Positions 8,576 to 28,727 of a DNA stretch of 28,804 nucleotides are shown in pieces. The notes under the pieces are model-generated. The model was not told the origin of the DNA. It saw only the letters and a program-made list of their open reading frames with translations, and searched no databases. Each line of letters starts with the position of its first letter. Positions within the stretch are counted from its first letter, which is position 1. The position numbers and the translations under genes were made by a program. Source of the stretch: a virus; IMG/VR virus record IMGVR_UViG_3300032304_000431, positions 1-28,804 of that record; one strand, written 5' to 3'.

Positions 8576-8588
8576 CTAACATTGTTAG
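8576..8588. repeat. Dispersed palindrome, 13-bp form
   Basis: CTAACATTGTTAG, a perfect inverted repeat around one central base. It lies between the leftward terminator and the stop codon of the last leftward gene. This is the only 13-bp copy outside a coding sequence. Confidence 0.8.
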
Positions 8589-8594
8589 TCTACG

Positions 8595-8789
8595 TCAGGT
8601 TCGCCAGACGCGCAACCCCTTAATTCCTTCCTCTATGGTTACTTTAGTAACCACATCAATATCCAGTCGGCGGGTTATCTGAGCGATAGTTTTTCTAGCT
8701 TGCTTGTGGTCGATGCAGGGCACAAAGAAACTGTGCCCCTTTCGGAATTTTCCCCAATTAAGCCGATACGTGACCGTCTCGATTCTCAT
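8595..8789 (-). CDS. Small conserved-looking phage protein, unknown function
   Basis: A 64-residue basic protein with core RKGHSFFVPC and a C-terminal GLRVWRT. The start is supported by GGAGG 9 nt upstream. It overlaps the 3' end of the primase-helicase gene by 32 bp and is the last gene of the leftward block, just before the terminator. The pattern of a short beta-rich N-terminus, a central helix (residues about 28-42) and a Val-Trp-Arg ending recalls small proteins in other phage replication modules. I do not recognise a function. Confidence 0.75.
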   Translation of the reverse strand: MRIETVTYRLNWGKFRKGHSFFVPCIDHKQARKTIAQITRRLDIDVVTKVTIEEGIKGLRVWRT

Positions 8790-11619
8790 CCGTTAGAGCC
8801 TCCACCGGCACAATTCTGTCAAAGTTCTTGGTGTTGAAGTGCAGTGCACGAACAGGTGGGGAATCCATCTTCATGCCCTTGGACATACGCTTGACGATCG
8901 TGTCGATGAACACACCCTCTTCCTTGAGTTGCTTGATCGCGTCGCGGTAGTGGATTTGAAACTTCACGCAGTAGTCTTTGAACGCCTTAGCCGAGATAAA
9001 CAGGTCGCCCGTGTCAGGCTCAAAACGTAACAATAGCTCACCCCTCGGCTCGGCTGTTGGCATAGCCCCCATCTTCGTCCGTGCGTCCACCACGCCATTC
9101 ACCACCAGTGTATTTTGAATGTGAGAGTTCATGAAGTCGCCCAGCATGACGGTCGGGTCTGACGCAGGAGGTGTTACTTCTTCGCGCATATTGGCCAGCA
9201 TACCGAGCAGCCACTTGTAGATAGCCTTCATGTCGTAGTCGTGCAAGCCAAGCTCTTGGGCGATCAAACCACCAGCAATGTTGATGGCAGCGGCGGCTGA
9301 CCAGAAGCGTTCCCGTGCGGTGAACTTAACTTCCTTGTCGATACGGGCTTGGATACTACGGACTAGGTTGGTAGCCTCTTCCAAGTTGTTGACGAGCCAC
9401 TGTGCATAAATGTCACCGGCATGGCCGTAGTTCTCAAGCATCTGATGGTCAAACATTTGCTTGCCTTCTTCGACGCTGATGATGGTGGTGGGCTCTATCT
9501 TGTACTCAAGCAGGCGCATGGATTCGCCGTCGGGGGAGTTCTTTGCCGCGCCGAGTTTCTCGTAGAAGCTAGCGTTCGATGACGCCAAGGTCATGTTGTT
9601 CCACTTAGTATGGTTAGCACGTAGCTCGTTGGTTTGCGACTTAGCGCGGTCCTTGCCTCGGCCTTGAGAGATACTGTAAGCCAAGTCAGAGAACTCCATT
9701 GGGCTGGTGTTCGTGATCTCGTCGATTGTGTTAGGCAGGTTGTTGTGCACACCGAGACGCATCATCTTGGCGTTAAGCGTGTCCTTCCACATGGACGACA
9801 ACTCTTTGGGATGCCCCCATACACTGTTGCACATAAACAACGCTGTCGACTTACCCGAGCCTGACGACTTGTGAATGACGTTGATGATCGCGCCGCTCAA
9901 GCCCGTGAACTTTAACAACGGAGAGCCAAACGCAGTAAGTGCAGCGAACGCGTGGGGTTCCAAACCCTCACGGGCGTACATATTAAAGACTTCTTTCCAC
10001 TTCTCAAACGTACCAGTCGGCACCATCTTCTCGGCGAAGCTGCGGGTGATAGCTGATGGTGGGCTGTAGAACACCCCGTCTTTTGTAATCTCGCGGTCGC
10101 CGACAATGAACTTGCTATCGTTGTCTACCCATCCAAATTGAGTTCTCATAACTTCTGCCTTCCTCACGTACTGTAAATTTTTCATGGAAGCTACGACGAA
10201 TACCGCCAGCAGCTCGTGTTGTTTTTGTGTTGCCATAACACCGTGGTGCGATAGTTGTTTGCGTAGCTCATCTTTCGCTGAGATGGCCGTAGCGGGAACC
10301 GAAAACTCTTTCACCCCATCGTGCGGCAGATGCAGTCTAAACAGGGCCACTTCACCCAGCTCGGGGTCTTTCATGCGCTTGACCACGTACAGGTCATGCT
10401 CGTATACCGACAAAGGTTCGTCTTCCGCTTCTTTTACCTGCATCCAGATACCGCCGTTCTTGCCACGGAAGAAAGGAAACGGATACTCAGGAATACGGTA
10501 GCGTTCGGGGACTGGGATTCCATCTTCGGTTTCCACGTTTCCAGCTTCCACCACGTACTCACCGTCCTCAACCTCAGCTTGAGCGATCTCCATACCGAGC
10601 ACAATCGGGGATTTAATTTTGCCCTTGTGGGGGCAACCATCACATCCAGTTGGGTTCAGCTTCTCAAAAGTTAAGCAGTGGTGTGGGCCACCGTTTGCAA
10701 CCAACTCGGCTACCTTTTTGTCTACCTCGGCGGGGTTGTAGTTGGGGTATTGATTGGACATCATGTGCGCCGCTTTGTCCTTGTCTACGCAGAACGCAGC
10801 AATCGACAGGGCGGAGCGCCACAAGGGTTCCTCGATGGTGTCTTGGTTTTGGTAGCAGTAGTTCAGCTGGGCGCAGCCGTTCTCCGCCTTCATCATGATG
10901 TTCTTAAATCGCTTGATCTTGTTGCCCATCAAGGCTTCCATCATTGGGCTGATGGACGGTAAGAAATCAGGCTTGTCGTCAACTGGCTCGGCACTGCCGA
11001 GTAGCTCTTTCCATTGGGCGTACGTCAGGGTTTGTGTGTTCTCATTAAGAACAGTGACTTCCATCGGTTCGGCTTGTTTAAAGTTAAATGTTCCGGGGAT
11101 ACGCAGTACCCGTGCTGCTTCGAATACGGAGGAATCCACAATGATGCCGTGCTCAACACACAGTTCACGTAGACGGTTTGCGAGGGGGAGCCAGTCGCGG
11201 CGCTCAATAGTTTCTTCAATCAACCAGTAGGCGTGGACGCCATACCCTGAGCTGACCATGATTGGGCGGGGCATACCTGCGGCAATGCAGAACTTCTTTA
11301 GTTCATCCAAGCCAATTTGCTGCGTTAGATACCCTTGAATGACGCCCTTATCATTCGGTACGCCCTTGGTTGGGCCGCAGTCAATATCCATCCACAGTGC
11401 GCGGAAGTGCATGGCGTTGTCTGCTGTGCGCTTGTTCAGAGGGCCGTACTTGGCGCATCCGAAATACACATCAAACTTGTTGTCCACCAGCGTCTTAGCC
11501 TGTGCCTCTACTTCTTCTCTCGTATCGAAAAACTTTTGGTCTGGGTACCGCCCAAGCCCGAGCACACAATACCGACCATTGCTGGGCAGTACGGTATCGA
11601 GAAGGTCGAAGTTAGACAT
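8758..11619 (-). CDS. Primase-helicase: AEP-like primase plus DUF927-type ATPase
   Basis: A 953-residue fusion expected to prime and unwind phage DNA. The N-terminal third looks like an archaeo-eukaryotic primase: a metal-binding WMDID at 76-80 (D78, D80) and the SSGYGVHAYW motif at 123-132 (H129). A Cys cluster follows (C315, C326, C329, with H331 nearby), probably zinc-binding. The C-terminal half resembles DUF927 helicases: an RRF-like N-terminal region from about 375, Walker A SSGSGKST at 585-592 and Walker B-like TIDEIT at 631-636. The ribosome binding site before ATG 11619 is weak, and a hairpin lies in the 59-bp leader. It is downstream of the HTH and SSB-like genes. The domain assignment is from motif recognition and is fairly secure. 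Confidence 0.9.
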   Translation of the reverse strand: MSNFDLLDTVLPSNGRYCVLGLGRYPDQKFFDTREEVEAQAKTLVDNKFDVYFGCAKYGPLNKRTADNAMHFRALWMDIDCGPTKGVPNDKGVIQGYLTQQIGLDELKKFCIAAGMPRPIMVSSGYGVHAYWLIEETIERRDWLPLANRLRELCVEHGIIVDSSVFEAARVLRIPGTFNFKQAEPMEVTVLNENTQTLTYAQWKELLGSAEPVDDKPDFLPSISPMMEALMGNKIKRFKNIMMKAENGCAQLNYCYQNQDTIEEPLWRSALSIAAFCVDKDKAAHMMSNQYPNYNPAEVDKKVAELVANGGPHHCLTFEKLNPTGCDGCPHKGKIKSPIVLGMEIAQAEVEDGEYVVEAGNVETEDGIPVPERYRIPEYPFPFFRGKNGGIWMQVKEAEDEPLSVYEHDLYVVKRMKDPELGEVALFRLHLPHDGVKEFSVPATAISAKDELRKQLSHHGVMATQKQHELLAVFVVASMKNLQYVRKAEVMRTQFGWVDNDSKFIVGDREITKDGVFYSPPSAITRSFAEKMVPTGTFEKWKEVFNMYAREGLEPHAFAALTAFGSPLLKFTGLSGAIINVIHKSSGSGKSTALFMCNSVWGHPKELSSMWKDTLNAKMMRLGVHNNLPNTIDEITNTSPMEFSDLAYSISQGRGKDRAKSQTNELRANHTKWNNMTLASSNASFYEKLGAAKNSPDGESMRLLEYKIEPTTIISVEEGKQMFDHQMLENYGHAGDIYAQWLVNNLEEATNLVRSIQARIDKEVKFTARERFWSAAAAINIAGGLIAQELGLHDYDMKAIYKWLLGMLANMREEVTPPASDPTVMLGDFMNSHIQNTLVVNGVVDARTKMGAMPTAEPRGELLLRFEPDTGDLFISAKAFKDYCVKFQIHYRDAIKQLKEEGVFIDTIVKRMSKGMKMDSPPVRALHFNTKNFDRIVPVEALTDENRDGHVSA

Positions 11620-11648
11620 ATTGATTTTCTTTTAGGGACGGCAAAGCT

Positions 11649-11664
11649 GGGGGCCGAAGCCCCC
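11649..11664 (-). other. GC hairpin in leader of primase-helicase gene
   Basis: A stem of GGGGGC with GCCCCC and, on the minus strand, a TTCG tetraloop, lying between the HTH gene stop (11679) and the primase start (11619). No T tract follows, so a stabilising or processing hairpin or a pause site is more likely than a terminator. The plus-strand sequence 11646-11659 recurs exactly at 11736-11749 inside the HTH gene, where it forms a CTGGGG/CCCCAG stem. Confidence 0.6.
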
Positions 11665-11678
11665 GTCAATGCACGGAT

Positions 11679-11918
11679 TTACTTTTTCGCCTTGAGGCGT
11701 GGGAGCAAGCGCTCGATTTTTTCGCAGTGGTGTCGGCTGGGGGCCGAAGTACCCCAGAACCAGTTGTAGATGGTCGCTCGACTCACATCAAGACGACCAG
11801 CTATCTCACTCACAGGAATATTGAGTTGGATGCAAGCACGGCCAAGGACTACGCCCCATGACTTGTCATCAGCCGCTTTGTTGGCTTCGACCAGTTGGTA
11901 GCTGTATCCGTAGCTCAT
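11679..11918 (-). CDS. Small helix-turn-helix DNA-binding protein
   Basis: A 79-residue protein. ATG 11918 is preceded by GAGGAG at 6-nt spacing, the same bases that end the upstream SSB-like gene. Residues about 34-58 read as a helix-turn-helix: IPVSEIAGRLDVSRATIYNW, a short helix, a turn at Leu-Asp-Val-Ser and a recognition helix. A basic tail (LLPRLKAKK) follows. It is most like small Cro/XRE-type regulators. Its position between the SSB-like and primase genes suggests early or middle expression. It is one candidate for the protein that reads the dispersed CTAACA..TGTTAG palindromes, but nothing in the sequence proves that pairing. Confidence 0.8.
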   Translation of the reverse strand: MSYGYSYQLVEANKAADDKSWGVVLGRACIQLNIPVSEIAGRLDVSRATIYNWFWGTSAPSRHHCEKIERLLPRLKAKK

Positions 11919-11921
11919 CAC

Positions 11922-12815
11922 TTACTCCTCGTCAGACCAAGCTTTAACAACGGCGTCCAAACCCTTTTTGGGGGCTGGAGTAGGTGTAGCAGCTTTAAAG
12001 TTTTCGCGTTTGACTGGCTCGGCAACATCGTCGGCCACAGGCGCGGCGGCTTTAGGGGCAGGTGCAGCCAATGCAGGAGCACGGCCAGAAACATCCGCTT
12101 GGTACGGAGTCATCGTAACCATCTTCTGAACTTCGGGCTTCTTAGCCACTTCGCTTGTAACTGCGTACTCGCCTTTGTTGATGAAGCGGGTCGGCGTAAA
12201 CAAAACTGACTGGTTGTCGTTCTCTTCGTTGAAGCTCAGTTGAGTTACCACGTAGTCCAAGCTCTTACCGTTGTTGGCCAAGTACTTGGTGTAGCTCTCA
12301 AATGGATGGGTGTTGTCGCCCACGCTTTCGCCGAACAAAGACTTGGATGCCAAGTTCAGTTGATAGACTTCGCCTTCCAAAGAAGTACCAAAATCTTCTA
12401 CCAAGTTCACCGCGATGCGGCGGCTGTAACGGCAAGCCTTTGATGTACCTTGACCCGAACCTTTGATGTTCTGAGTGCAGCTATCGCAGCGGCTAGATTG
12501 AGGCGCAGTTGCACCAGCATCAGGAGCGATACCGTCGTTAGAGAAGCAGTCAGGCGCAGTTGGGTCAGCATCAGGTGTCCATGCCTTCGAGTAGAAGATA
12601 CGACCAACTTTGGGTGATGCGCTAACAATGACTACGTCGAGGTTGCCCTTGACCTTACCCATCTCTTCGCCGCCGACCATCTTGCGGAAGATGCCGTTCT
12701 TAGGCACGATTCGCTTAACGCCAGACTTGCCAGCGAGTTGTTTGGTGAGTTCACTGACGCCAGCGGTTTGCAGAAAGTCAGGAAGGTCTTGGTTCAAAAT
12801 TGTGATGTTACTCAT
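11922..12815 (-). CDS. Putative single-stranded DNA-binding protein
   Basis: A 297-residue protein with a beta-rich N-terminal body, a Cys set that could bind zinc (C90, C110, C113, C128), a low-complexity Ala/Pro/Lys linker from about 240, and an acidic, aromatic C-terminal tip ending WSDEE. An acidic aromatic tail on a flexible linker is typical of phage and bacterial ssDNA-binding proteins, which use it to contact replication partners. The central zinc-like insertion recalls gp32-type SSBs, though I cannot align it. The start has GGAG 9 nt upstream. Neighbours (an unknown protein upstream, HTH and primase downstream) fit a replication role. The function is inferred, not proven. Confidence 0.6.
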   Translation of the reverse strand: MSNITILNQDLPDFLQTAGVSELTKQLAGKSGVKRIVPKNGIFRKMVGGEEMGKVKGNLDVVIVSASPKVGRIFYSKAWTPDADPTAPDCFSNDGIAPDAGATAPQSSRCDSCTQNIKGSGQGTSKACRYSRRIAVNLVEDFGTSLEGEVYQLNLASKSLFGESVGDNTHPFESYTKYLANNGKSLDYVVTQLSFNEENDNQSVLFTPTRFINKGEYAVTSEVAKKPEVQKMVTMTPYQADVSGRAPALAAPAPKAAAPVADDVAEPVKRENFKAATPTPAPKKGLDAVVKAWSDEE

Positions 12816-12831
12816 TTTTCATTTCTCCGAT

Positions 12832-13251: not shown

Positions 13252-13280
13252 CTAACACTCCGTTGGTTGAAAGAAAACCG

Positions 13281-16321: not shown

Positions 16322-18128
16322 AGCTCTCTCCATATCCTGATTCACAGTTCAAGGGCAACTCCATGCCCCACTTGGGCCTGATGCGCATACACATCTCAAC
16401 GTATTCCTGCGCAGTCTTAACTTCTTCGGTGCGTACGATACACGCCACAGCATCATGCACGGTCATAACAACGTGGTACTTCTTGGCAATCATCAGCATT
16501 TGGTCGCCGATGATGATACGGGCTAGGGCTTGGCACACGTTCTCAATTACCTTACCGCCGTAGATACGGTTGGGGATTATGGCTCGGCCTTTCTTGGTGT
16601 CGTACACGATCTCGGTCTTGCCGTCGTCCTCGTTCGTTACCTTGCGTATGTTGGGGTAGCGTAGGTATAAGCCGTTGGGTAGCTTGACGCCGCCCTTACC
16701 TTCGATCTTCAGCACATCATCTCGACCTAACATTGTTAGTTGGTCTCTGAGAATTGCTTCAAGTGCCACACTAGCGGCTTTCCAAAGTTCAGTGATTCGG
16801 GGGTAAGTTTCACGGTAGGTGTCAATAATCCTTTTCGCCTCTTCAAGTGATACTTCCACTCCAAAATTTTTAAGTTGAGCTTTGAACTTCGCCGCGCCCA
16901 TCCCATACCCAGCCCCAAGGATAGTTGTCTTGCCCACGAAACGCTCGTCCTTTGTGATTTCTTCCACCGCCTTGCCGTAGATAGCCGATGCCATGATTTT
17001 GTATACATCTTCACCCCTATCAAATGCTTCAACCAAGTCGTCTTGCCCAGCTAGCCATGCCAGCGTACGGGCTTCAATCTGCGATGAGTCTGAGTCGACC
17101 ATCATGTAACCCGCAGGTGCAAGGATAGCCTTTTTCAGCGTCGAACCCCTCGGCAGGTTTTGCAGGTTTAGCTTGTCGTCACCACCCCACCGTCCTGTGT
17201 GGGCGGCGTAGTAGCGGAGGGGAACTGGCATTGAGCCTCGCCGAGCAATCCCAATAAAACGCTCTGTTCGTGACTCTTCAATCGTAGATTTTGTACCCAG
17301 CCGTGCGGCGACCAATGCTTGTACGCTTGGATTCTCGTGTTCGAGAAGTTCTTTGAACGCTTCATCTGTCTTTGCGAAGGCATAAGTTTCCTTTCCCGTA
17401 GCGGGGCTCTTCTTCATCGGCGGTGTGACACCATGCACCGTAAGCAACTCGGCGAACTTGGGGTTGCTCATCAACGTGTCTTTGTCGAAATTCTCCAGCA
17501 GCTCGGCCTTGCGTTGGCGCTCTTTGTGTAGGTGTACGTTCAGCATCCCTTCGTCCAGTTGCAAGACTGGCTCGGTGAACATACGGATGGTCAGGTCAAT
17601 CAGACGCAACTCAGTCGGCGGGAAGTCTTGGTTCATGCAGTTGAACAAGTCCCATGTCAGGCGTACGTCGTTCTTGCAGTACTCACCGTACTGAGCTAGC
17701 TGTAACGTAGGGAAGTCAGTGCGGCGTAAGCCTTTTGCATCGTTGACCTCAGTGCCCTTCTTGCCGATGCCGTAGAACTCCGCCAGAACCGCTAGGCTAC
17801 CGCCTACGTTCGTACCGTGAAGCGCCCGACCCATCGACAATGTATCTAACCAACCCTTCGGTTTGATTTGGAAGTGCTCGGTCAGGATGAACCCATCGAA
17901 CATTGCGTTGTGGGCTAGGGCGAGAGAGTTGGCCCAGTCGTAGTTCTTCAAAAAAGCGTAGGTGCTGAGCGTGTCCCCGCTGAACCACTCAGGCTCACCG
18001 TCATTGATCTGCACAGCAACACCCACAACTTCAAAGCGCGGGTCACGTACGTATTCTTCAGTAGTCTGTTTAGAGAACCCAAGGTCAGCGGAGTAGTAGG
18101 TCTCGAAATCGACCGTGATGATGTTCAT
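16308..18128 (-). CDS. Family A DNA polymerase with 3'-5' exonuclease domain
   Basis: A 606-residue replicative polymerase. Exonuclease: D7 and E9 in VDFET, N74 to D78 in HNAMFD, and Y150/D154 in YCKND. Polymerase: TGRW at 311-314, motif A DSSQIEAR with catalytic D347, motif B with R396, K400 and GYG at 407-409, and motif C VHDA with D559. The residue matching E. coli Phe762 is Leu404. Motif C reads HDA rather than the usual HDE; the metal-binding Asp is kept. The protein is shorter than bacterial Pol I because it lacks the 5' nuclease. It starts in an ATGA overlap with the VRR-NUC gene, and a 13-bp copy of the dispersed palindrome lies inside it. Confidence 0.96.
   Translation of the reverse strand: MNIITVDFETYYSADLGFSKQTTEEYVRDPRFEVVGVAVQINDGEPEWFSGDTLSTYAFLKNYDWANSLALAHNAMFDGFILTEHFQIKPKGWLDTLSMGRALHGTNVGGSLAVLAEFYGIGKKGTEVNDAKGLRRTDFPTLQLAQYGEYCKNDVRLTWDLFNCMNQDFPPTELRLIDLTIRMFTEPVLQLDEGMLNVHLHKERQRKAELLENFDKDTLMSNPKFAELLTVHGVTPPMKKSPATGKETYAFAKTDEAFKELLEHENPSVQALVAARLGTKSTIEESRTERFIGIARRGSMPVPLRYYAAHTGRWGGDDKLNLQNLPRGSTLKKAILAPAGYMMVDSDSSQIEARTLAWLAGQDDLVEAFDRGEDVYKIMASAIYGKAVEEITKDERFVGKTTILGAGYGMGAAKFKAQLKNFGVEVSLEEAKRIIDTYRETYPRITELWKAASVALEAILRDQLTMLGRDDVLKIEGKGGVKLPNGLYLRYPNIRKVTNEDDGKTEIVYDTKKGRAIIPNRIYGGKVIENVCQALARIIIGDQMLMIAKKYHVVMTVHDAVACIVRTEEVKTAQEYVEMCMRIRPKWGMELPLNCESGYGESYGDC
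16727..16739. repeat. Dispersed palindrome, 13-bp form, inside polymerase gene
   Basis: CTAACATTGTTAG. On the coding strand it encodes Leu-Thr-Met-Leu and starts at codon position 1. Confidence 0.8.
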
Positions 18129-18430
18129 TTAGCTCTGTCCTTACACTCTTGGATTACTTCTTTTAGGTAGTCGATGTTGGTCTCTCTAACCACCAACGTA
18201 TATCCACCAGCCGCATTTACTTCTTTTAGATTTTTCCACTGCAACGCAGTAGGTTCGCCCTTGCCAGCCTTCGCTTCGATCGCCACAAAAAACCCGTTCA
18301 CACAGCACAAGAAGTCAGGGACTCCACTGTTGCCGTACCCCGTGCCCATAGGCATCGCGTAGTACACGCCGTGCTCTTTCAGAACCTTCTTTATCTTCTC
18401 TTTGACTTTTGCTTCGGGTGTTGACGCCAT
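18125..18430 (-). CDS. VRR-NUC domain nuclease
   Basis: A 101-residue protein that is essentially a single VRR-NUC domain: E6, D39 in SGVPDFL, E52 and K54 in VAIEAKAGKG, then Q64 in TALQ, in the order of the PD-(D/E)XK catalytic set. Stand-alone phage VRR-NUC proteins are thought to be structure-specific endonucleases, such as Holliday-junction resolvases. ATG 18430 has GGAG at 4-nt spacing. An in-frame ATG at 18469 falls inside a copy of the dispersed palindrome, as in four other genes here, but has no good ribosome binding site. It is first in the polymerase/nuclease run and is linked to the polymerase by an ATGA overlap. Confidence 0.9.
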   Translation of the reverse strand: MASTPEAKVKEKIKKVLKEHGVYYAMPMGTGYGNSGVPDFLCCVNGFFVAIEAKAGKGEPTALQWKNLKEVNAAGGYTLVVRETNIDYLKEVIQECKDRAK

Positions 18431-18462
18431 GATACTCCAATATTGTACTTTGTCAAGAGGGT

Positions 18463-18476
18463 CTAACATTTGTTAG
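18463..18476. repeat. Dispersed palindrome, 14-bp form
   Basis: CTAACATTTGTTAG, 32 bp upstream of the chosen VRR-NUC start and between it and the candidate structured RNA. It contains an in-frame ATG for that gene. Confidence 0.85.
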
Positions 18477-21676: not shown

Positions 21677-22540
21677 TTACCATTCAAACTTCTGCAAAAT
21701 TGCGTCTACCTTGTTCTTCAAGTTCTCACGAACCATCGAACTCTCTTTGATGTACTCAATGTCAGCACCTAACATTGTTAGTTCCAACTGCTTACGCGCC
21801 TCCTCTAGCTTGGGGTCGTTCGTAATGTTCATCTTGTCCAGCAACCCGCACAAGTCCACAGCGTTGGTCACAAGCGAATCGTGGTAACGCTTCTTGGACT
21901 CCTTGCCCTCGTCACCCTCCTCGTCGGTTAATTTTTTACTCATCGCACTCAACACCTCATGCAGTCGTTCCCAAGGTGTACGCATAGCCTCGGCCAGTCG
22001 CTCATCGAACTTGGCTTCATACTGCTGCTTCATTTCATCTAAGTCATGCGCTGATATGTCCAAGCGAAAGTCACCTGACTCGGGTATCGGGTCGATCGCC
22101 ATGCGGAACCCGAACTTGTTTCTGACATCTGTCAGATCGGGGTAATCATCTGCCCGATACATCGTGCCCAAGTGCGTCTGTGCCTCGTTCACTAGGCGTG
22201 GGTACTCGAAGAAGAAGTTGTTACACATCTGCTTGAACTGCACCTCGTAGCTGTTCATCGTCTGCTTGTACTCCATGAACAACTTAGTCGGCAACAGTCG
22301 TTGGCCTTTGTCTGCCCAAGGTAACGTATGCTGATTGTGGTAAAGGCGTATCCGCGCCGCGAGCTTCTCGATGTCTTTGCGTAGGCTAGTACCTGCAAAT
22401 AGATTCTTCCGCGTCTGTGACGCATCACGTACCGCTGACGCATTGGTGTTCACCGTGTCAGTCATCTCTCGGTCAACCTTGTTGGCTGGCCACACACTTA
22501 TGTTCAGTTCCACTAGAACCGCGCTTGATGCAATACTCAT
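21677..22540 (-). CDS. DUF3150-like protein
   Basis: A 287-residue protein. ATG 22540 has GGAGG 6 nt upstream, overlapping the VWA gene's last codons; a longer frame to 22657 is unlikely. The central part (FFFEYPRLVNEAQTHLG, then the MYRADDYPD and FGFRMAIDPIP blocks) resembles the DUF3150 family, in which a Tyr-Pro, a Leu-Gly and a Asp-Tyr-Pro landmark occur in this order. DUF3150 genes are often found beside MoxR-type AAA+ and VWA genes on phages and mobile elements, exactly as here. The role is unknown. The C-terminal third is charged and helical. A 13-bp palindrome copy lies in the gene. The assignment is from memory of the pattern, not a search. Confidence 0.65.
   Translation of the reverse strand: MSIASSAVLVELNISVWPANKVDREMTDTVNTNASAVRDASQTRKNLFAGTSLRKDIEKLAARIRLYHNQHTLPWADKGQRLLPTKLFMEYKQTMNSYEVQFKQMCNNFFFEYPRLVNEAQTHLGTMYRADDYPDLTDVRNKFGFRMAIDPIPESGDFRLDISAHDLDEMKQQYEAKFDERLAEAMRTPWERLHEVLSAMSKKLTDEEGDEGKESKKRYHDSLVTNAVDLCGLLDKMNITNDPKLEEARKQLELTMLGADIEYIKESSMVRENLKNKVDAILQKFEW
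21769..21781. repeat. Dispersed palindrome, 13-bp form, inside DUF3150-like gene
   Basis: CTAACATTGTTAG. On the coding strand it starts at codon position 1 and encodes Leu-Thr-Met-Leu, the same reading as in the polymerase gene. Confidence 0.8.
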
Positions 22541-22541
22541 A

Positions 22542-23765
22542 TCAATCCTCCAAGTAAATAGTTTTGCCATGCTCTGATACCGCGCTTGTGTTGCCACCAC
22601 TGATGACCCACATAGTCGGCGCTGTCCACTCGTCACCCCAATTCGGTACATACCCATCGGTCAACACGATCACGCACTCGGGCTTGATGTTCTCGTCACG
22701 CAAGTACTTGGATACGCAAGAAGGGTCAGTACCCCCGCCACCCTTGGGCTTGGTTGAACTAACAATGTTAGATACCGCCGACCCCTCATACTTCTCATGC
22801 CCTGCTACCTCGCCGTCCCAATAGATCAAGTCCACCACCTCGGGGCTTACTTCTTCTGCGATACCCTGTACCTCGGACAAGAACTCAGCAAGCTCAGGCC
22901 CACCGATACTTCCCGATGTGTCGATAGCCACAACCAAGTGACCAACCTTCTCGCCGATCATGCTAGGCATATACGTACCCGTACTCAGGAATCGACGGTT
23001 GACCCTGCGCCATGAACTTGTGTCTTTGTTAGAACACGTAGCCTTGACGAAGTCGCGCAACACCTCACGCCAATCAATCTTGGGTGCGAGTAAGTCTTCA
23101 AGCTCACGGTCTAGTCCGCCGCCGCCCTTGCCCACTTGCTTCTGGTGTGCGATCAAGCCTTGACGAATCGCTTGGTCAATCTCACGCGCCAACTCCTTCT
23201 TGTCTTCATCGGACAAGCCTTCCGCACCTTCCCAGTCATGCTCGTCAAAGCCATCACCACCTTCATCACCTTCGCCACCCCCCTCTTCCTCCTTCTCCTG
23301 CTTGAGAATGTCGAACACTTGCTTGGTGTTCATACCTCGGAACCGCTCGTCAACCAAGCCCATGTAGTCACCCTTCTTACCCTTGGGGTGTCCTGTGTCC
23401 TCGGTGAACCGTGGCATGGCGATCACCGATTCGTTAGGGTCTAAGTCCTTGAGCATCAAGTTAATCACGTAGTCCATCGCGCTGTTGGCCATACGTGCGT
23501 CCTCGGTGTGCAACTTAGTCCACGTTGTCAGGTGTCGGTACATCTTGTGACCCGCTTCGTGTGCGATCACAAACGCCAACTCCCTGTCGTTCAACTTCTT
23601 CACAAACTCGCGCCCATACATCTCGTCGCGTCCGTTGGTACACGCTGTCGGTATGTCGTCACGCACATGGGTCTTGCCCACCATCATCACGCCTTGTAGT
23701 AGTGCGAACTTGGGGTTACGCATCACCGTGATCTTCGCCTTCTGCAATTTACGTTCTTCTAACAT
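22542..23765 (-). CDS. Metallopeptidase-like plus VWA domain protein (DUF2201 type)
   Basis: A 407-residue protein. The N-terminal domain has a zinc-binding HEAGH at 69-73 and a helix SAMDYVIN typical of the DUF2201 putative metallopeptidase domain. A Glu/Gly-rich acidic linker (about 155-185) and a charged helical region follow. The C-terminal VWA domain has an intact MIDAS: DTSGS at 282-286, T346 in GGGGTDPS and D370 in LTDGY. The VWA protein is expected to partner the MoxR ATPase encoded two genes upstream. Its start codon lies inside a 14-bp copy of the dispersed palindrome, with AAGGAG just before it. A 13-bp copy lies within the coding region. The biological role in phages is not known. 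Confidence 0.9.
   Translation of the reverse strand: MLEERKLQKAKITVMRNPKFALLQGVMMVGKTHVRDDIPTACTNGRDEMYGREFVKKLNDRELAFVIAHEAGHKMYRHLTTWTKLHTEDARMANSAMDYVINLMLKDLDPNESVIAMPRFTEDTGHPKGKKGDYMGLVDERFRGMNTKQVFDILKQEKEEEGGGEGDEGGDGFDEHDWEGAEGLSDEDKKELAREIDQAIRQGLIAHQKQVGKGGGGLDRELEDLLAPKIDWREVLRDFVKATCSNKDTSSWRRVNRRFLSTGTYMPSMIGEKVGHLVVAIDTSGSIGGPELAEFLSEVQGIAEEVSPEVVDLIYWDGEVAGHEKYEGSAVSNIVSSTKPKGGGGTDPSCVSKYLRDENIKPECVIVLTDGYVPNWGDEWTAPTMWVISGGNTSAVSEHGKTIYLED
22759..22771. repeat. Dispersed palindrome, 13-bp form, inside VWA gene
   Basis: CTAACAATGTTAG. On the coding strand it starts at codon position 2 and encodes the Ser-Asn-Ile-Val-Ser stretch. Confidence 0.8.
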
Positions 23766-23772
23766 TTGTTAG
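23759..23772. repeat. Dispersed palindrome, 14-bp form, over VWA start codon
   Basis: CTAACATTTGTTAG. The minus-strand ATG at 23765 is the VWA start codon. The ribosome binding site lies immediately beside it. Confidence 0.85.
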
Positions 23773-23778: not shown

Positions 23779-24144
23779 TTAAAAATCTGTTTCAATAGTT
23801 CTAACTGACCGCACTTGGTTGTCGGCGTAATCCGATTGGGTCTCCTCAATGTCACCCGCATCTTCACCTAGGCGCACAAACTCGTAGCACCATCGGATTT
23901 CCTCCTGCTCTGCTAACTCCAAGAAGTTAGACACGAACGCATTGAACGCTTGCACCTCGGGGTAGCTGTCGTACCACTTCACGTGCTGGTCTTCAAACAT
24001 ATACCCTGCGTAGTACTTGTTCTTTATTGGTCGCAAGTTCCCCGCCAACTCCTCGGGAAAGTTCTCGTCCACGAACAGCTTCACAGCCGCCGCCTTGTCG
24101 GGCGTTGCATAGAACGCCGCCGCCACATCACTTCGATAGCCCAT
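23779..24144 (-). CDS. Conserved-looking small phage protein
   Basis: A 121-residue acidic protein beginning MGYRSDVAAAFY, a start I associate with small phage proteins of unknown role. It has a helix with Lys/Glu (TPDKAAAVKLFVDENF), a Tyr/Phe-rich middle (YAGYMFEDQHVKWYDSYPE) and an acidic C-terminal region (GEDAGDIEETQSDYAD). GGAGG with close spacing precedes ATG 24144, and the gene overlaps the upstream one by 17 bp. It lies between the MoxR and VWA genes, so it may be an adaptor or substrate of that pair; this is inference from position only. Confidence 0.8.
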   Translation of the reverse strand: MGYRSDVAAAFYATPDKAAAVKLFVDENFPEELAGNLRPIKNKYYAGYMFEDQHVKWYDSYPEVQAFNAFVSNFLELAEQEEIRWCYEFVRLGEDAGDIEETQSDYADNQVRSVRTIETDF

Positions 24145-24349
24145 CTGATTCCTCCTCGATTGAATTTAATAACTTACACAAACCATCCGCTTGCTCTTTC
24201 TCTGATACGGGGAATGTCTGTACGGTTCTCTTTTCTTTCCAGTCGTACAGCCACCACCCCGCCTGTCGCAACCACACAGACCCACTACCATCCCTGATCT
24301 CTGTGGTCATGGTTCGCACGTTGTACCGTGGGTTGTGCCCGTATAACAT
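24128..24349 (-). CDS. Small unknown protein downstream of MoxR ATPase
   Basis: A 73-residue protein. Its start ATG 24349 lies in a palindrome copy shared with the stop codon of the MoxR gene (TAACAAATG), which suggests translational coupling since no GGAG precedes it. An alternative start at ATG 24310 would give a 60-residue product, also without a good ribosome binding site. It includes a Trp-rich strand pair (SVWLRQAGWWLYDW) and an acidic C-terminus. No recognised family. Confidence 0.7.
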   Translation of the reverse strand: MLYGHNPRYNVRTMTTEIRDGSGSVWLRQAGWWLYDWKEKRTVQTFPVSEKEQADGLCKLLNSIEEESDGLSK

Positions 24350-24356
24350 TTGTTAG
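24343..24356. repeat. Dispersed palindrome, 14-bp form with one mismatch
   Basis: ATAACATTTGTTAG; the first base deviates from the consensus C. It carries both the MoxR stop codon and the next gene's start codon. Confidence 0.75.
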
Positions 24357-25417
24357 AGCAAGTCTTGGTTCTTAGCAACCCAGTCGGCGAACGCCTTAGC
24401 GCCGAACGCAATGGACTGCTTCGATGGTGTCTTCGCAATGTTGATAGCGAACACGGCTTGCCACTCGGCGTCGAACCTCTCCAAGTACTCCATGAATGGG
24501 GCAATGTTGGTCTTGTCGATACGTGCGATAGCACCGAACACCACAATCGCACAAGCGCCCGGACTTGTGGGTACCTTCGTATGCTTAGGGTCTTTGATGG
24601 TGTCTTCCCATGATGGGAGTTGGTCAGAGAACTCGATGTACGCTTGCATATCACGCGCCGCCGCTTCACCAATCGCACCACTGAGCGCCGCAATCACCGA
24701 GTCAGGGTCATTCTGTTTACGTGTACTAACAATGTTAGATGCCGTTGCAAGTGAGCGTGGTGAAACAAACGCAACCTGTGGTTTCTTGGGGTTGAAGATG
24801 TACGGGTTGTCGCCTTGTCCTGCGTCCGTATAGCTTGCCATTGCATGAGGGAATCGGTTAACCCAAGCAAGCACCTCGGCCTCGATGCCGTTGTTCATAC
24901 CCCAATCAATCCATTCCTCGGATGTCGGCTTGGCAATAGTCACGGGCACGATACGGTTCAGACTGTGCGCCTTGATGCTGTCACCCACACCATCGGTACT
25001 CAGGTTACCTGTGAGAAAACAAATCGTGTCTTTGGGCAATGGGATGTCGCCGAGTCGCGGGTTCGCCTTCTCAAGCATGGGGTGCAACATATTCTTAACT
25101 GGGTCAGCGCCTTTGCTGAACTCGTCGAGCATGATGACCATCGGCTTGCCTGTATGAATACCGAATCGGGCATTGGGGTAGTACCGAGTCGTCTTCGTCT
25201 CATGGTCAATCACGGGCATTGCAATGTCGCCCAAGTCCATGTTCGGCACGTCGATGTAGGCATAGTCATAGCCTAGTGGTGCGGCGATTGCTTCTAGTAG
25301 AGAAGACTTACCAATTCCGGGTTCACCACGTAGCATGAACCTTGTGGTCGGGTTGGTGCGAATCAGGTTCGCGGCTTGCTTCAATGTGATGCTCTTACCA
25401 AATTTAACTTCTGACAT
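24353..25417 (-). CDS. MoxR-type AAA+ ATPase
   Basis: A 354-residue ATPase. ATG 25417 has AAGGA 7 nt upstream; an ATG two codons earlier is too close. Motifs: Walker A GEPGIGKS at 31-38, Walker B VIMLDEF at 94-100, sensor 1 asparagine in LTGN at 138, and an Asn-Arg pair at 154-155 as arginine-finger candidate. The DVPNMDLGDI segment after Walker A and the overall length fit MoxR-like proteins, which remodel partner complexes with VWA proteins. It is the first gene after the 25503-25531 promoter and precedes the VWA and DUF3150-like genes. A 13-bp palindrome copy lies inside. The substrate is unknown. Confidence 0.93.
   Translation of the reverse strand: MSEVKFGKSITLKQAANLIRTNPTTRFMLRGEPGIGKSSLLEAIAAPLGYDYAYIDVPNMDLGDIAMPVIDHETKTTRYYPNARFGIHTGKPMVIMLDEFSKGADPVKNMLHPMLEKANPRLGDIPLPKDTICFLTGNLSTDGVGDSIKAHSLNRIVPVTIAKPTSEEWIDWGMNNGIEAEVLAWVNRFPHAMASYTDAGQGDNPYIFNPKKPQVAFVSPRSLATASNIVSTRKQNDPDSVIAALSGAIGEAAARDMQAYIEFSDQLPSWEDTIKDPKHTKVPTSPGACAIVVFGAIARIDKTNIAPFMEYLERFDAEWQAVFAINIAKTPSKQSIAFGAKAFADWVAKNQDLL
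24726..24738. repeat. Dispersed palindrome, 13-bp form, inside MoxR gene
   Basis: CTAACAATGTTAG. On the coding strand it starts at codon position 2 and encodes Ser-Asn-Ile-Val-Ser, as in the VWA gene. Confidence 0.8.
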
Positions 25418-25439
25418 TTTCATTTCCTTCGTTTAGTTT

Positions 25440-25453
25440 CTAACATTTGTTAG
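25440..25453. repeat. Dispersed palindrome, 14-bp form, in MoxR leader
   Basis: CTAACATTTGTTAG in the untranslated leader of the MoxR gene, 49 bp downstream of the -10 box of the 25503-25531 promoter. A TTGGC/GCCAA stem lies just before it in the RNA. Confidence 0.85.
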
Positions 25454-25502
25454 ATTGGCGGGACTGCCAACCCAACACCTCAACTTCTCTACCTCACCAT
25501 AT

Positions 25503-25531
25503 ATTGTATCACACAAACTATACATTGTCAA
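25503..25531 (-). promoter_or_regulatory. Strong sigma70-like leftward promoter of the MoxR operon
   Basis: On the minus strand, TTGACA (25526-25531), a 17-nt spacer and TACAAT (25503-25508). It lies in the 163-bp gap between the 339-aa gene and the MoxR gene. The following leader resembles that of the 28085-28113 promoter over the first 25 bases and around the palindrome. Confidence 0.85.
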
Positions 25532-25570
25532 GTGTATGGGCGTGTCTATCCCCGTGTATATATCTGTGTC

Positions 25571-25584
25571 CTAACATTTGTTAG
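25571..25584. repeat. Dispersed palindrome, 14-bp form, over stop of 339-aa gene
   Basis: CTAACATTTGTTAG, containing the TAA stop of the 339-aa gene and an ATG followed by only 18 more sense codons (25518-25577). It lies 39 bp upstream of the -35 box of the MoxR promoter. Confidence 0.85.
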
Positions 25585-26600
25585 ATGTCCTCCTCCGTCT
25601 TTACGTAGCTGTCGTACTTGCCAGTCGGCACTTTGCCTTCGGGCAACTGCACCTTCGTGAACACCTTGTCGGCGAACATGGTCATCAGAATCTTGTCCAA
25701 CACTTTCTCGAACTGCCCCACGCCCAGCGTTATGGGATGGTCTAGGTTCTCGCGCCAATACAAACTCTGCCCTTGAAGCATCAGCACGTTGAACGCAATC
25801 CAGTAGTTTTGATGGCGTGCGTCATCATCTTGGTCATTCCGTACTAGGTCGAAGAACTTTTCAGACTTCTCGCGGTATTTCTGCCACGCCGTATCCTTGT
25901 TCACGCCGCCGTAGTACTTGGGCTTCTCGCTCAGCTTGTCCCACCAATCTGTATTGGGTCGGACTCGTGGGTCACCTTGGGTTTCATCATCTTTGCCGAA
26001 CACCTCGATCAACTCTGCATACGTTGTTTTGACCACAGTAAAAGGCTCACGCCCCCACATACTCTCAACTTCCGTGCCTTTGAGTTTGGTTACTCCGCTG
26101 ACGTAGTCCTTGAACATCGACACCTGCTTCCTAACATTGTTAGCTTCTTTGCGGCTCACTCGATAGTCGTAGAGCGTCTGCTTCACCTTCGGCATCCACC
26201 GCCCGTTGTCCCGCACCAACACCAGTTCCCCCTTCGCGGGAAGCATCGCCTTGGAGTTGTCGGCAAAATGCAACACCACCTCACCACGCACTCGGTTGGC
26301 GGTCACAGTCGGCACAATCCTAGATATGAATTGGCACGTTGACGCACTCGGCCAGTTGTCTATGTTGATGATGATCTCGTCCTCCACCGTGAACTTGACC
26401 ACGGGCGTCTTGTATAGGATGCACTCGATCGCCTCTGTCCATACGTTTTTGCGTACGCTGTACGTGTCCACATACCTGCGCTCACCCAATGGCCTTGGGT
26501 CATCAGCCCTACCCTTGATGGGCTTGGTGTTGTTGTATTTCTGCAACGCTTCTTTGTAGTCGCGTATCCGTGGCACATTCATTACTGTTGCGTATCCCAT
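25581..26600 (-). CDS. Unknown 339-aa protein upstream of the MoxR module
   Basis: A 339-residue protein with GGAG 7 nt before ATG 26600. It begins MGYATVMNVPRIRDY and continues with a basic region PIKGRADDPRPLGERRYVD, an acidic beta-rich stretch (VKFTVEDEIIINIDNW), and later aromatic, charged helices (KYREKSEKFFDLV and a WIAFNVLMLQ segment). No catalytic motif is recognised. It ends at a palindrome copy and is separated from the MoxR operon by its own promoter. Being last of the first transcription unit, it may be under different control. One 13-bp palindrome copy lies within it. Confidence 0.8.
   Translation of the reverse strand: MGYATVMNVPRIRDYKEALQKYNNTKPIKGRADDPRPLGERRYVDTYSVRKNVWTEAIECILYKTPVVKFTVEDEIIINIDNWPSASTCQFISRIVPTVTANRVRGEVVLHFADNSKAMLPAKGELVLVRDNGRWMPKVKQTLYDYRVSRKEANNVRKQVSMFKDYVSGVTKLKGTEVESMWGREPFTVVKTTYAELIEVFGKDDETQGDPRVRPNTDWWDKLSEKPKYYGGVNKDTAWQKYREKSEKFFDLVRNDQDDDARHQNYWIAFNVLMLQGQSLYWRENLDHPITLGVGQFEKVLDKILMTMFADKVFTKVQLPEGKVPTGKYDSYVKTEEDI
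26131..26143. repeat. Dispersed palindrome, 13-bp form, inside 339-aa gene
   Basis: CTAACATTGTTAG. On the coding strand it starts at codon position 2 and encodes Ala-Asn-Asn-Val-Arg, a different peptide from the other copies. Confidence 0.8.
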
Positions 26601-26617
26601 TACATCTCTCCTTTAAA

Positions 26618-26812
26618 TTAAACCGAAGCCAGTGCAACCGTTGCCCTATCTCTCAACTGCATCATCAGCCCTTGCGGGTTGCGCCCTAGCTTCTTCGCTA
26701 GTTGGCACATTGCGTTACGCTTTGCGTTGTCGATACTTGTGGTCGTGGTGTAGAACGTCAGGATTTCCCCTGCGTTGTTGACTGTCACTTTGAACTTGTG
26801 CTTTTCTAACAT
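26618..26812 (-). CDS. Small unknown protein
   Basis: A 64-residue basic protein. ATG 26812 lies inside a palindrome copy, with GGAGGA 7 nt upstream. It reads as a beta hairpin (KFKVTVNNAGEILTFYTTTT), a helix IDNAKRNAMCQLAKKLG and a short end. The two-strand/helix layout could be a small nucleic-acid-binding fold, but no family is recognised. Confidence 0.75.
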   Translation of the reverse strand: MLEKHKFKVTVNNAGEILTFYTTTTSIDNAKRNAMCQLAKKLGRNPQGLMMQLRDRATVALASV

Positions 26813-26819
26813 TTGTTAG
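26806..26819. repeat. Dispersed palindrome, 14-bp form, stop-start junction
   Basis: CTAACATTTGTTAG. On the minus strand it holds the TAA of the 26816-27010 gene and the ATG of the 26618-26812 gene (TAACAAATG). Confidence 0.85.
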
Positions 26820-27010
26820 TCCTCCATCCATGCGGGTTGCCGTTGCTCAATAGTTACGCCGTACCCAAGCGCCTGTATCGCCTTGAGGTCGGATGGTCGA
26901 AGCGTGGTTGTCCCTGCAATGTCGGCAAACAGTTGCGCCTTGTCGCACACGGGATACACCTTGTCCACTCCGTATACTGTCTTAATACGTACCACAATGT
27001 TCTCATTCAT
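26816..27010 (-). CDS. Small unknown protein
   Basis: A 64-residue protein: a beta-rich N-terminus (IVVRIKTVYGVDKVYPVCD), a helix around KAQLFADIAG, a TLRPSDLKAIQALGY segment and a final strand. The start overlaps the previous stop as ATGA, with GGAGG nearby. Its stop codon lies within a palindrome copy. No known family. Confidence 0.75.
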   Translation of the reverse strand: MNENIVVRIKTVYGVDKVYPVCDKAQLFADIAGTTTLRPSDLKAIQALGYGVTIEQRQPAWMED

Positions 27011-27174
27011 TCTGTAACCTCCTCAATACCTGTGATGTTTGACTCGGCAAGGCCGAAGTCGTCGGGGTTCCACTTCATCCATGCGGCCAACTCTGCGGCC
27101 TCCACGCTGTCGGCTTCCACCTCAATGATGGTTGTCTCGGTGCGCTCAATCGTCACCTTATATGCTTTACTCAT
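27007..27174 (-). CDS. Small unknown protein
   Basis: A 55-residue protein. ATG 27174 is preceded by GAGGAG at 7-nt spacing; a longer frame to 27198 has no such site. It starts as a beta strand (KAYKVTIERTETTIIEVEAD), followed by an acidic helix SVEAAELAAWM and an acidic end. It overlaps the upstream gene by 8 bp and the downstream gene by 4. No recognised function. Confidence 0.75.
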   Translation of the reverse strand: MSKAYKVTIERTETTIIEVEADSVEAAELAAWMKWNPDDFGLAESNITGIEEVTE

Positions 27175-27364
27175 CTTCGCTCTCCTCGTCGGCATCATTG
27201 CCGCAGTCCACGTCCCACTCGGTCTGCGCCATGTCTTTCACGTCGGCCTCGCTCATGTAGCCAAGGCAAGCGTGGGCAAGCATCTCCCATGTCATCTCTC
27301 CCTCGTACACCATGTCGAGTACCTTGTTGGTGTAGATTCGTGCGTAGTTGGTGTTGTAAGTCAT
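27167..27364 (-). CDS. Small acidic unknown protein
   Basis: A 65-residue acidic protein. The N-terminus is Tyr/Asn-rich and helical (YARIYTNKVLDMVYEG), then TWEMLAHACLGYMSEADVK, and the C-terminus is a run of Asp and Glu. It starts in an ATGA overlap with the zinc-ribbon gene. Highly acidic small proteins in phage early regions sometimes mimic DNA or bind host regulators; that is only a possibility here. The ribosome binding site is weak. Confidence 0.7.
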   Translation of the reverse strand: MTYNTNYARIYTNKVLDMVYEGEMTWEMLAHACLGYMSEADVKDMAQTEWDVDCGNDADEESEDE

Positions 27365-27597
27365 AAACGATTTTCTTTCGGGTTAGTCTGTCGTAGGGTT
27401 GCGTGTGCTGACGTAGTTGTAACTAACTGATAGTTACCCTTGGTGTATTCCTGTATAACGCACCACGAAGTACGTTCTGTCTTGGCTCGGTCTTCGCCGC
27501 AGAACTTGCAGTAGTGGTAGCCAAGCGCCCAACGCTCGATGTGTACGTCATCACCGCAGTCGATACATTCTTTCCAGTTGCCGTGTGTTTCTAACAT
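27361..27597 (-). CDS. Small zinc-ribbon protein
   Basis: A 78-residue protein with two CxxC knuckles, CIDCG (residues about 11-15) and CKFCG (30-34), a typical zinc ribbon. The rest is Thr/Gln/Arg-rich with a basic C-terminus. Small zinc-ribbon proteins are common in phage early regions and may bind DNA, RNA or host proteins. ATG 27597 lies inside a palindrome copy, with a GGAG site just before it. It ends in an ATGA overlap with the next gene. Confidence 0.8.
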   Translation of the reverse strand: MLETHGNWKECIDCGDDVHIERWALGYHYCKFCGEDRAKTERTSWCVIQEYTKGNYQLVTTTSAHATLRQTNPKENRL

Positions 27598-27604
27598 TTG
27601 TTAG
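27591..27604. repeat. Dispersed palindrome, 14-bp form, stop-start junction
   Basis: CTAACATTTGTTAG. On the minus strand it holds the stop codon of the 69-aa gene and the start codon of the zinc-ribbon gene. Confidence 0.85.
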
Positions 27605-27810
27605 TTCTCCTGTCCCAAAGCATCCATGTAATTAGCAAGCACGTTGATGCACTCGAAGTAGTCGCTGTCTTTGAGTAACTGCTCGGCATCGTGGTCTTGC
27701 ACGAAAAAGGACTCGCCTGTCTTTTGGTCGGTCACGTTGTACGCCCACCCATTGCCGAACGACTCGATGTGGTAGCGGTTGTCTGCGGTTACGAAAGCAT
27801 TAGTAATCAT
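27601..27810 (-). CDS. Small unknown protein
   Basis: A 69-residue acidic protein. ATG 27810 is chosen because GAGG lies 9 nt upstream; the longer frame to 27825 lacks a site. It has an aromatic beta-rich N-terminal half (NRYHIESFGNGWAYNVTDQK) and an acidic helical C-terminal half (HDAEQLLKDSDYFECINVL). It overlaps the upstream membrane protein gene by 11 bp. No family is recognised. Confidence 0.75.
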   Translation of the reverse strand: MITNAFVTADNRYHIESFGNGWAYNVTDQKTGESFFVQDHDAEQLLKDSDYFECINVLANYMDALGQEN

Positions 27811-27997
27811 TTTTAAAGCCCTCATCTTTGATGTTCAGCACATCGGTCAGCACGTGACCCATGAACATACCGCCGACCAAAAGGCCGAAGTTGCATATTG
27901 GTGTGTCACTACCCCAAGATAGGTAGATGGTTGATATTGCGATGATGGTCATGCCTACGAGGTAGGCGCGTTCTGTGATGAGGTCTTTGCGTGTCAT
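27800..27997 (-). CDS. Small membrane protein, first gene of the leftward block
   Basis: A 65-residue protein with two hydrophobic segments, about 10-28 (AYLVGMTIIAISTIYLSW) and 36-52 (NFGLLVGGMFMGHVLTD), and charged ends. AAGGA lies 7 nt before ATG 27997. It is the first gene after the 28085-28113 promoter, so it is likely expressed very early, when phages often make small membrane proteins that alter the host. No function is assigned. Confidence 0.75.
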   Translation of the reverse strand: MTRKDLITERAYLVGMTIIAISTIYLSWGSDTPICNFGLLVGGMFMGHVLTDVLNIKDEGFKNDY

Positions 27998-28022
27998 TGT
28001 GTATTCCTTTGTTACGTTGTTT

Positions 28023-28036
28023 CTAACAAATGTTAG
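28023..28036. repeat. Dispersed palindrome, 14-bp form, in first leader
   Basis: CTAACAAATGTTAG in the leader of the first leftward gene, 48 bp downstream of the -10 box. This matches the 49-bp distance at the MoxR promoter. Confidence 0.85.
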
Positions 28037-28084
28037 ATTCGGACTAGAAGCGGGTTTTGTTACACTTTCTCCACTTCAACCTAT

Positions 28085-28113
28085 ATTGTACCACAAAGTT
28101 ATGGGTTTGTCAA
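28085..28113 (-). promoter_or_regulatory. Strong sigma70-like leftward promoter
   Basis: On the minus strand, TTGACA (28108-28113), a 17-nt spacer and TACAAT (28085-28090), both near consensus. It is 88 bp upstream of the first leftward gene and shares leader features with the MoxR promoter. Confidence 0.87.
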
Positions 28114-28489
28114 GTATTCGGCTGATTGCATAGTTTGTAACTTTGTGATGTGGGTTGCTTGGGTTGTTACGTTTTGAGGGGCAATGTTATGTAATGATGT
28201 AATGGAAAAAAGGGTGAATGTAACAAAAGATGTAACAATGTGAAATGGCTTAACGGTGCGGGTTACGAAAGAAAAAATGATGTAATGTTACTTTGTTATA
28301 TAAAAATAGAAATAGAGAGAGCGGCGTCTAAAAGTTGGTGTATTACGAATTGCCCAAATTGTGGTGCGAATTGCACTCGCAGAGAAGGTCTTTGTCTCAG
28401 GTTTGCCGACTCTCAATATGCCCAAAACACGTTACATTATAACAATACCCCGCCAACCCGCATGGTTGAGCCATTTGTTTCGTTACACT

Positions 28490-28518
28490 TTGACAATGTA
28501 AAATCATAACAATATGAA
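28490..28518 (+). promoter_or_regulatory. Possible rightward promoter
   Basis: TTGACA (28490-28495), a 17-nt spacer and TATGAA (28513-28518), a weaker -10. A 14-bp palindrome begins 33 bp downstream. If active, it would be divergent from the leftward promoter. No rightward gene is visible before the window ends. Confidence 0.4.
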
Positions 28519-28551
28519 AAACGTAACAAAACCACGTAACAAAGCCACGTT

Positions 28552-28565
28552 CTAACAAATGTTAG
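28552..28565. repeat. Dispersed palindrome, 14-bp form
   Basis: CTAACAAATGTTAG in the control region, downstream of the possible rightward promoter and close to the last GTAAC motifs. Confidence 0.85.
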
Positions 28566-28571
28566 GCTTGC

Positions 28572-28595
28572 CCCTAGCCCCGCCCAGAGAACTGG
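28572..28595 (+). repeat. 24-bp direct repeat, copy 1
   Basis: An exact match to 28653-28676, 81 bp apart start to start. Each copy begins CCCTAGCCCC and contains a small CCAG-AGAA-CTGG hairpin. Confidence 0.85.
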
Positions 28596-28652
28596 TCTTG
28601 GTTTACTCTGCACTCGCGTTCTCTTAGCCGTACTCACGTACAGGCAACACGG

Positions 28653-28676
28653 CCCTAGCCCCGCCCAGAGAACTGG
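28653..28676 (+). repeat. 24-bp direct repeat, copy 2
   Basis: Second exact copy. The 57 bp between the copies holds no recognisable gene. It could be an origin or recombination element. Confidence 0.85.
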
Positions 28677-28713
28677 CATTAAATAAAAATTCGGGTGAAC
28701 AAAAAAGCCCGAT

Positions 28714-28727
28714 CTAACAAATGTTAG
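28714..28727. repeat. Dispersed palindrome, 14-bp form
   Basis: CTAACAAATGTTAG, 10 bp left of the A tract of the terminator, the rightmost copy in the window. Confidence 0.85.

Follow-up and report, generated by a model that had tools for sequence, protein, structure and literature searches.

The stoperators of the cluster A mycobacteriophages L5 and Bxb1, read by Rep/gp71, are 13–14 base pairs (bp) long, lack dyad symmetry, are bound by a monomer, are oriented with respect to transcription and occur genome-wide (PMC6550527). The SPBRE elements of the temperate phage SPbeta, about ten promoter-located 15-bp sites, are read by MrpR, a repressor with a tyrosine-recombinase fold (PMC10516654). 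Here we describe a set of palindromes, CTAACA and TGTTAG separated by 1 or 2 nucleotides (nt), that is dispersed through the leftward gene block of a viral DNA, the IMG/VR record IMGVR_UViG_3300032304_000431, all 28,804 bp of which we refer to as the window. Judging from sequence comparison, we think it probable that these palindromes are the sites of an autoregulated dimeric protein, the product of the head gene of that block, which would repress early transcription and probably also roadblock it.

Dispersed operators and a single phage repressor are shared with phage P1, whose C1 operators, unlike the present sites, are asymmetric and 17 bp long and serve a temperate plasmid prophage. The likeness to the L5 stoperators lies in having tens of short sites that are nearly identical, a minority of them at promoters, in a repressor gene that adjoins a site and for which autoregulation has been proposed, and in a motif that diverges with the repressor among relatives (PMC6550527). 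Site number, at 11–23 core sites in each of nine near-complete relatives and 18 in the closed window genome, is somewhat below the 20–30 of L5. The present sites differ from those of L5 in being confined to the early block and, as the earlier note on this DNA had recognized, in being palindromic and not oriented (the central base of the 1-nt sites is A or T in a ratio of 185:153, with no strong strand preference). Their phages also differ in that a search for integrase and ParA found neither: tyrosine integrase (PF00589), serine recombinase (PF07508) and ParA (PF13614) are absent from 12 records, including ten near-complete genomes. With SPBRE and MrpR the set has in common a dispersed repeated element and one phage repressor (PMC10516654), from which it departs in having intragenic sites as well and a candidate protein that lacks a known fold and gives no tyrosine-recombinase fold match. 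The system works like the L5 stoperators and SPBRE/MrpR, and fails the tested defining features of both. A literature search found nothing relevant on the motif or on dispersed palindromic phage operators.

All 16 palindromes that the earlier note had listed are present in the window, six as exact 13-mers and ten as 14-mers (one, at 24343, with a mismatch), and a scan of the virion genes at 1–8534 returns none. With up to two mismatches allowed, the 13-mer and 14-mer patterns match 7 and 12 times, where dinucleotide shuffles give 1.17 and 1.05 and never equal either observed count; a reversed control pattern has 0 matches in the window. The placement, too, is as described before: five of the six 13-mers fall within five large genes, and all ten 14-mers occupy leaders, gene junctions or intergenic positions.

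Searching with the window's right end recovered a second contig, IMGVR_UViG_3300032304_000103 (L202/L203; 34,276 bp), which shares exactly 123 bp with each end of the window (1–123 and 28682–28804). From this exact double overlap we infer that both contigs are one phage, and together they form a circle of 62,834 bp, beside near-complete relatives of 59–67 kilobases (kb). The added 34 kb carry rightward genes for terminase, portal and capsid-type proteins and, directly past the window end, a single leftward gene of 182 amino acids (aa). They add one exact 14-mer (L202:775–788) and one variant with a 3-nt spacer, TAACAATGTGTTA (L202:684), and no others, both upstream of this 182-aa gene. The closed genome holds 18 sites in its early block as opposed to 0 in its 41.6-kb late block. 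The scan of the full genome and relatives that the earlier note had proposed was run, and the motif is conserved among the relatives in early blocks only: the nine near-complete relatives have 146 core palindromes there, and their late blocks, 348 kb in all, have 0.

The leftward gene is our candidate for the regulator. Its last four codons (D L K stop; 12 bp) lie at 28793–28804 on the minus strand of the window and its remainder at L202:112–660, also minus strand, on the second contig. By gene-content comparison, a head gene of 158–211 aa is found in eight motif-bearing genomes, is absent from G010 and has a diverged version in G001. The head-gene family search worked from a four-sequence subset of family A, the whole alignment having no conserved stretch. 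The proteins belong to two hidden Markov model families, A and B, of weak mutual similarity, which together comprise 41 distinct proteins of about 160–210 aa; the candidate of the window phage is a member of family B (7.6e-53), which fits its 11 sites with 2-nt spacers. For every one of the 41 regulators, a site or more falls inside the gene, within the 300 bp that precede it or within the 150 bp that follow; the surroundings of the head gene are rich in sites in any case, which makes such flanking weaker evidence than the constrained distances. Typically a distal upstream site lies at −106 to −171 and a proximal one at −26 to −46 relative to the start codon, with a third just past the stop. 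The best sigma-70-like match is frequently just downstream of the distal upstream site (mean score 9.35, versus 8.56 in shuffles), and this is where the window phage has TTGATT-17-TACAAT (−81/−58). Past its stop come 14-mers at 28714–28727 (66 bp downstream; a 13-mer in G020) and 28552–28565 (228 bp downstream). AlphaFold models of the regulator are all-helical and of fair confidence (predicted local distance difference test scores of 78.5 and 76.6), and the alignment contains a putative helix-turn-helix-like pair ending in W-x-R-V-K. Another phage, L156, has two tandem family A regulator genes (L156:1969–2580 and 3266–3796) and 22 core sites, the outer base of which is mostly other than C/G.

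The relatives, 160 loci assembled from polymerase and VWA-protein searches, are a group of uncultured aquatic phages; absence of sites was left unused for L005, L007, L011, L018 and similar loci, where the contigs span the distal, site-poor part of the block. An unbiased count of palindromes ranks the CTAACA motif top in the window and in nine of the ten near-complete relatives, the tenth, G010, having one copy and a different head protein. Across these loci the sites take the form TAACA-Nk-TGTTA with k of 1, 2 or 3; no set has a k of 0, and a single k is the rule in most phages, spacer length being a lineage trait. A second half-site, CTGACA, replaces the TAACA type in L084, L085, L136 and L140, which have 7–10 copies of TGACA-N2-TGTCA, mostly as CTGACA-N2-TGTCAG, and G021 is mixed, with 8 TGACA-N2 copies and 10 TAACA-N1 sites. 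At positions orthologous to 18463, 22759, 25440 and 28023, where the window has the CTAACA type, G021, L003, L084 or L085 has the CTGACA type. One copy of the other half-site type, CTGACATCTGTCAG at 22122–22135 (two mismatches to the 14-mer pattern), also stands alone in the window and is possibly a relic; this half-site type is the main one in the four phages just named for the replacement.

Site type varies with the adjoining regulator. Flanking sites are mainly 1-nt in 23 of the 26 members of family A, and among the 15 of family B they are mainly TAACA-N2 in 10 and TGACA-N2 in 2, counts that are not independent, since the loci are related by descent. The two TGACA regulators deviate in the putative recognition helix, reading MWSRxKD..GR as against YWxRVKxASG. 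On a tree of the neighboring VWA protein at least nine changes of site type are required; the window's own 10-row clade includes TAACA-N1, mixed and TGACA-N2 phages, and site type differs even among relatives of the window with up to 90% VWA identity.

Having two spacer lengths need not mean having two systems; the palindromes look rather like one site set in transition between a 1-nt specificity and a 2-nt one. At 23759, 25440, 25571 and 28714 a 14-mer of the window corresponds to a 13-mer in a relative, a difference of one spacer base, and the intragenic 13-mers are identical in most relatives. Inside genes the 1-nt spacer would be retained since adding 1 bp shifts the reading frame, and the simplest account of the direction suggested by these comparisons would be that the regulator changed first and that 1-bp insertions then arose at sites where the frame permitted them. 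Frame limits also disfavor intragenic 14-mers as such (one of three frames is open to them, versus two of three for 13-mers), so that part of the pattern needs no history. L104, L113 and L124, the head protein of which is unrelated, retain the intragenic TAACA sites and lack the head-proximal ones, as is expected if the head cassette and its own sites are exchanged as a unit.

How a regulator with a dozen sites or more changes its specificity is an old question, since every site must change too. Close relatives here keep the intermediates: longer-spacer noncoding sites beside frame-frozen intragenic ones, half-sites that at orthologous positions have changed in both arms, and genomes in which two types of site coexist. 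With sites and protein differing together among relatives, a whole set of control sites would be seen being rewired. If true, the reading would carry dispersed control of the roadblock type beyond the temperate actinophages to a common aquatic phage group, through a small protein family that has no name in any searched database and is testable in a simple reporter.

Apart from the two limits given with the counts above, several observations weigh against this assignment. The rule linking family to spacer is a tendency, not strict: L221, L222 and L224 belong to family B and are mainly 1-nt near the gene, while in family A G003 and L151 are 3-nt and G027 is 2-nt. The 13-mers are intact both in the window and in L104, L113 and L124, and may still be used, by the regulator or by another protein. 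A promoter scan of the early block hardly exceeds chance (19 versus 16.2). Finally, searches that included the family B profile gave the regulator no Pfam, PHROG or PDB relative, fold searches with its models returned chance-level matches only and no solved fold, and tblastn detected no homologue in isolated phages; as to kinship with L5 Rep, the comparison covered the family B profile against solved structures, Pfam and PHROG, with no match. Since these searches recognized no relative or fold for the protein, its binding to DNA is something we infer.

On the mechanism that we favor, the product of the first leftward early gene would bind as a symmetric dimer, each dimer contacting two TAAC half-sites 3, 4 or 5 bases apart (TAACA-N1/2/3-TGTTA). 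Through the bracketing sites it would repress its own promoter; occupied sites at other promoters would shut down the leftward early and replication genes; and intragenic and junction sites would act as roadblocks to elongating RNA polymerase, the late genes being spared for want of sites. In the window phage the regulator is of family B, and nearly all noncoding sites are by now 2-nt, the intragenic ones still 1-nt. Promoter repression combined with roadblocking is favored because sites lie beside promoter-like sequences, deep in genes and in the convergent gap at 8576, and at the latter two kinds of position the regulator would most plausibly act on elongation.

What such a shut-off is for is the weakest step. 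The absence of the integrase, serine recombinase and ParA families speaks for a virulent phage with early shut-off rather than for lysogeny. A repressor of lysogeny or superinfection immunity, as L5 Rep is, in a temperate and perhaps plasmid-like phage seems unlikely to us, even though dispersed sites with an autoregulated repressor are the plan of L5 and SPbeta and specificities diversified within close relatives resemble immunity groups; besides the missing tyrosine integrase, large serine recombinase and ParA-type ATPase families, late genes are without sites here, whereas those of L5 are genome-wide. For the fuller picture, in which a regulator family of undescribed fold would silence the early half of apparently virulent podoviruses through palindromic stoperators, and in which repeated cassette replacement would be followed by rewriting of the site set, we regard the balance as even.

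Less likely again is that the sites organize or partition replicating phage DNA, in the manner of a centromere or nucleoprotein scaffold, with effects on transcription secondary. Sharp, near-invariant sites with hardly any degenerate copies are also typical of parS-like sites, and an AT-rich region is surrounded by sites, but ParA is missing, and confinement to the early block and the constrained distances to start codons better fit control of transcription. That the regulator activates or antiterminates early transcription is doubtful, too: sites do stand upstream of several promoter-like sequences (18463, 25571 and −127 of the regulator), but many are intragenic or just downstream of promoters, and antitermination sites read as RNA would be oriented, which the palindromes are not.

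The earlier note had proposed that a phage regulator reads the sites, most likely correctly in kind, and had named as candidates the helix-turn-helix (HTH) protein, the ribbon-helix-helix (RHH)-like protein and the DUF3310 protein, which are poor fits. A reader of this sort, or a host regulator, is improbable. The HTH protein (11679–11921) has a real HTH_3 domain, and intragenic sites are kept in some phages with an unrelated head protein. Yet its helix SRATIYNWFWG is the same across close relatives with TAACA-N1, mixed TAACA-N1/N2 and TGACA-N2 sites, and the RHH-like protein (19367) is 94% identical in phages of differing site type; as neither sequence follows site type, both were rejected. 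The DUF3310 protein is too divergent among phages to be judged against site type. A host factor would leave unexplained the changes of half-site and spacer between phages whose neighboring DNA is about 85% identical. The head-gene product is apparently the better candidate.

That duplex DNA is what is read follows from core letters that are near-invariant and tolerated changes that are mirror-symmetric. The 49 loci with spacer-1 sets contain 292 exact and 71 one-mismatch sites, in which changes are nearly limited to the outer and innermost pairs, in mirror types (C1 to A, 25, with G13 to T, 22; A6 to T, 3, with T8 to A, 6), and the TAAC/GTTA core shows at most 3 changes across the one-mismatch sites. 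RNA hairpins for processing or translation control of early mRNAs are largely refuted, for although a stem of 5 bp with a loop of 3–5 nt could form, and seven of the window's 14-mers have AAATG on the sense strand, with a start codon included in several, a G-U pair would survive in 2 of the 71 one-mismatch sites, the other 69 altering one arm without keeping it, 1-nt centers have no strong strand preference, and some sites are upstream of promoters or in convergent gaps.

The remaining positions can be followed leftward from the head gene. The 14-mer at 28023–28036 (CTGACATTTGTCAG in L085) is about 50 bp downstream of the −10 box of the promoter-like site 28113–28085. The stretch from 28100 to 28550, past the head gene and ahead of the first small genes, is AT-rich, noncoding and full of GTTAC/GTAAC words, and is a possible replication origin. 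Two 14-mers, 27591–27604 and 26806–26819, are at stop/start junctions, and a 13-mer at 26131–26143 is within the open reading frame (ORF) 25581–26600. The promoter-like site 25531–25503 has a 14-mer 40 bp upstream of its −35 box (25571–25584; a 13-mer in G020, L014 and L087) and another about 50 bp downstream of its −10 box (25440–25453; a 13-mer in L082, CTGACATTTGTCAG in G021 and L085). The AAA ATPase gene contains a 13-mer (24726–24738), and its stop is spanned by the mismatched 14-mer (24343–24356). In the VWA (DUF2201) gene the ATG is included in a 14-mer (23759–23772; a 13-mer in L010 and L082) and a 13-mer lies inside (22759–22771; CTGACAAATGTCAG at the equivalent position in G021, L084 and L085). 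ORF 21677–22657 contains the 13-mer at 21769–21781. The 14-mer at 18463–18476, whose ortholog in L003 and L084 is CTGACATTTGTCAG, includes the ATG of ORF 18125–18469 and is 7 bp upstream of the −35 box of the promoter-like site 18456–18429, so that all three strong promoter-like sequences adjoin palindromes. The DNA polymerase gene has a 13-mer at 16727–16739, exact in most close relatives, where the flanks are 72–86% identical, and the 13-mer CTAACATTGTTAG at 8576–8588 occupies the gap where late and early genes converge, and is conserved at this position in G004, L002 and L012.

Terminase relatives include the Pelagibacter phages HTVC023P/027P, phage DSL-LC04 and Planktothrix phage Pag-Yong1. 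The genome parts examined of the isolates DSL-LC04 and HTVC027P are free of comparable palindromes. Pag-Yong1 (OL906435; L240 = OL906435.1 20000–65000) has 21 GTTCA-N3-TGAAC palindromes, mostly GGTTCAG-N-CTGAACC (GGTTCAGNCTGAACC), for example at L240 1478, 9688, 18865 and 19556. Here, too, the gene at the head of the leftward block (UMO76074.1, 187 aa) sits between two of the sites, and the VWA and ATPase cassette is common to both; unlike the present set, these palindromes differ in sequence, occur in early and late blocks and are mostly at gene junctions, and a profile comparison of the head protein with families A and B gives no convincing similarity. In G010 (L174–L177) the head gene encodes an unrelated protein of 169 aa and is present twice, and AGGGTTAACC words that recur there (e.g., at 48385, 52140 and 54714) and in L116 are perhaps its own site set. 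L104 and L135, whose head protein is of a third, unrelated type, contain 7–9 copies of another dispersed repeat, TGCTTAAAAAATAGGCA(GT).

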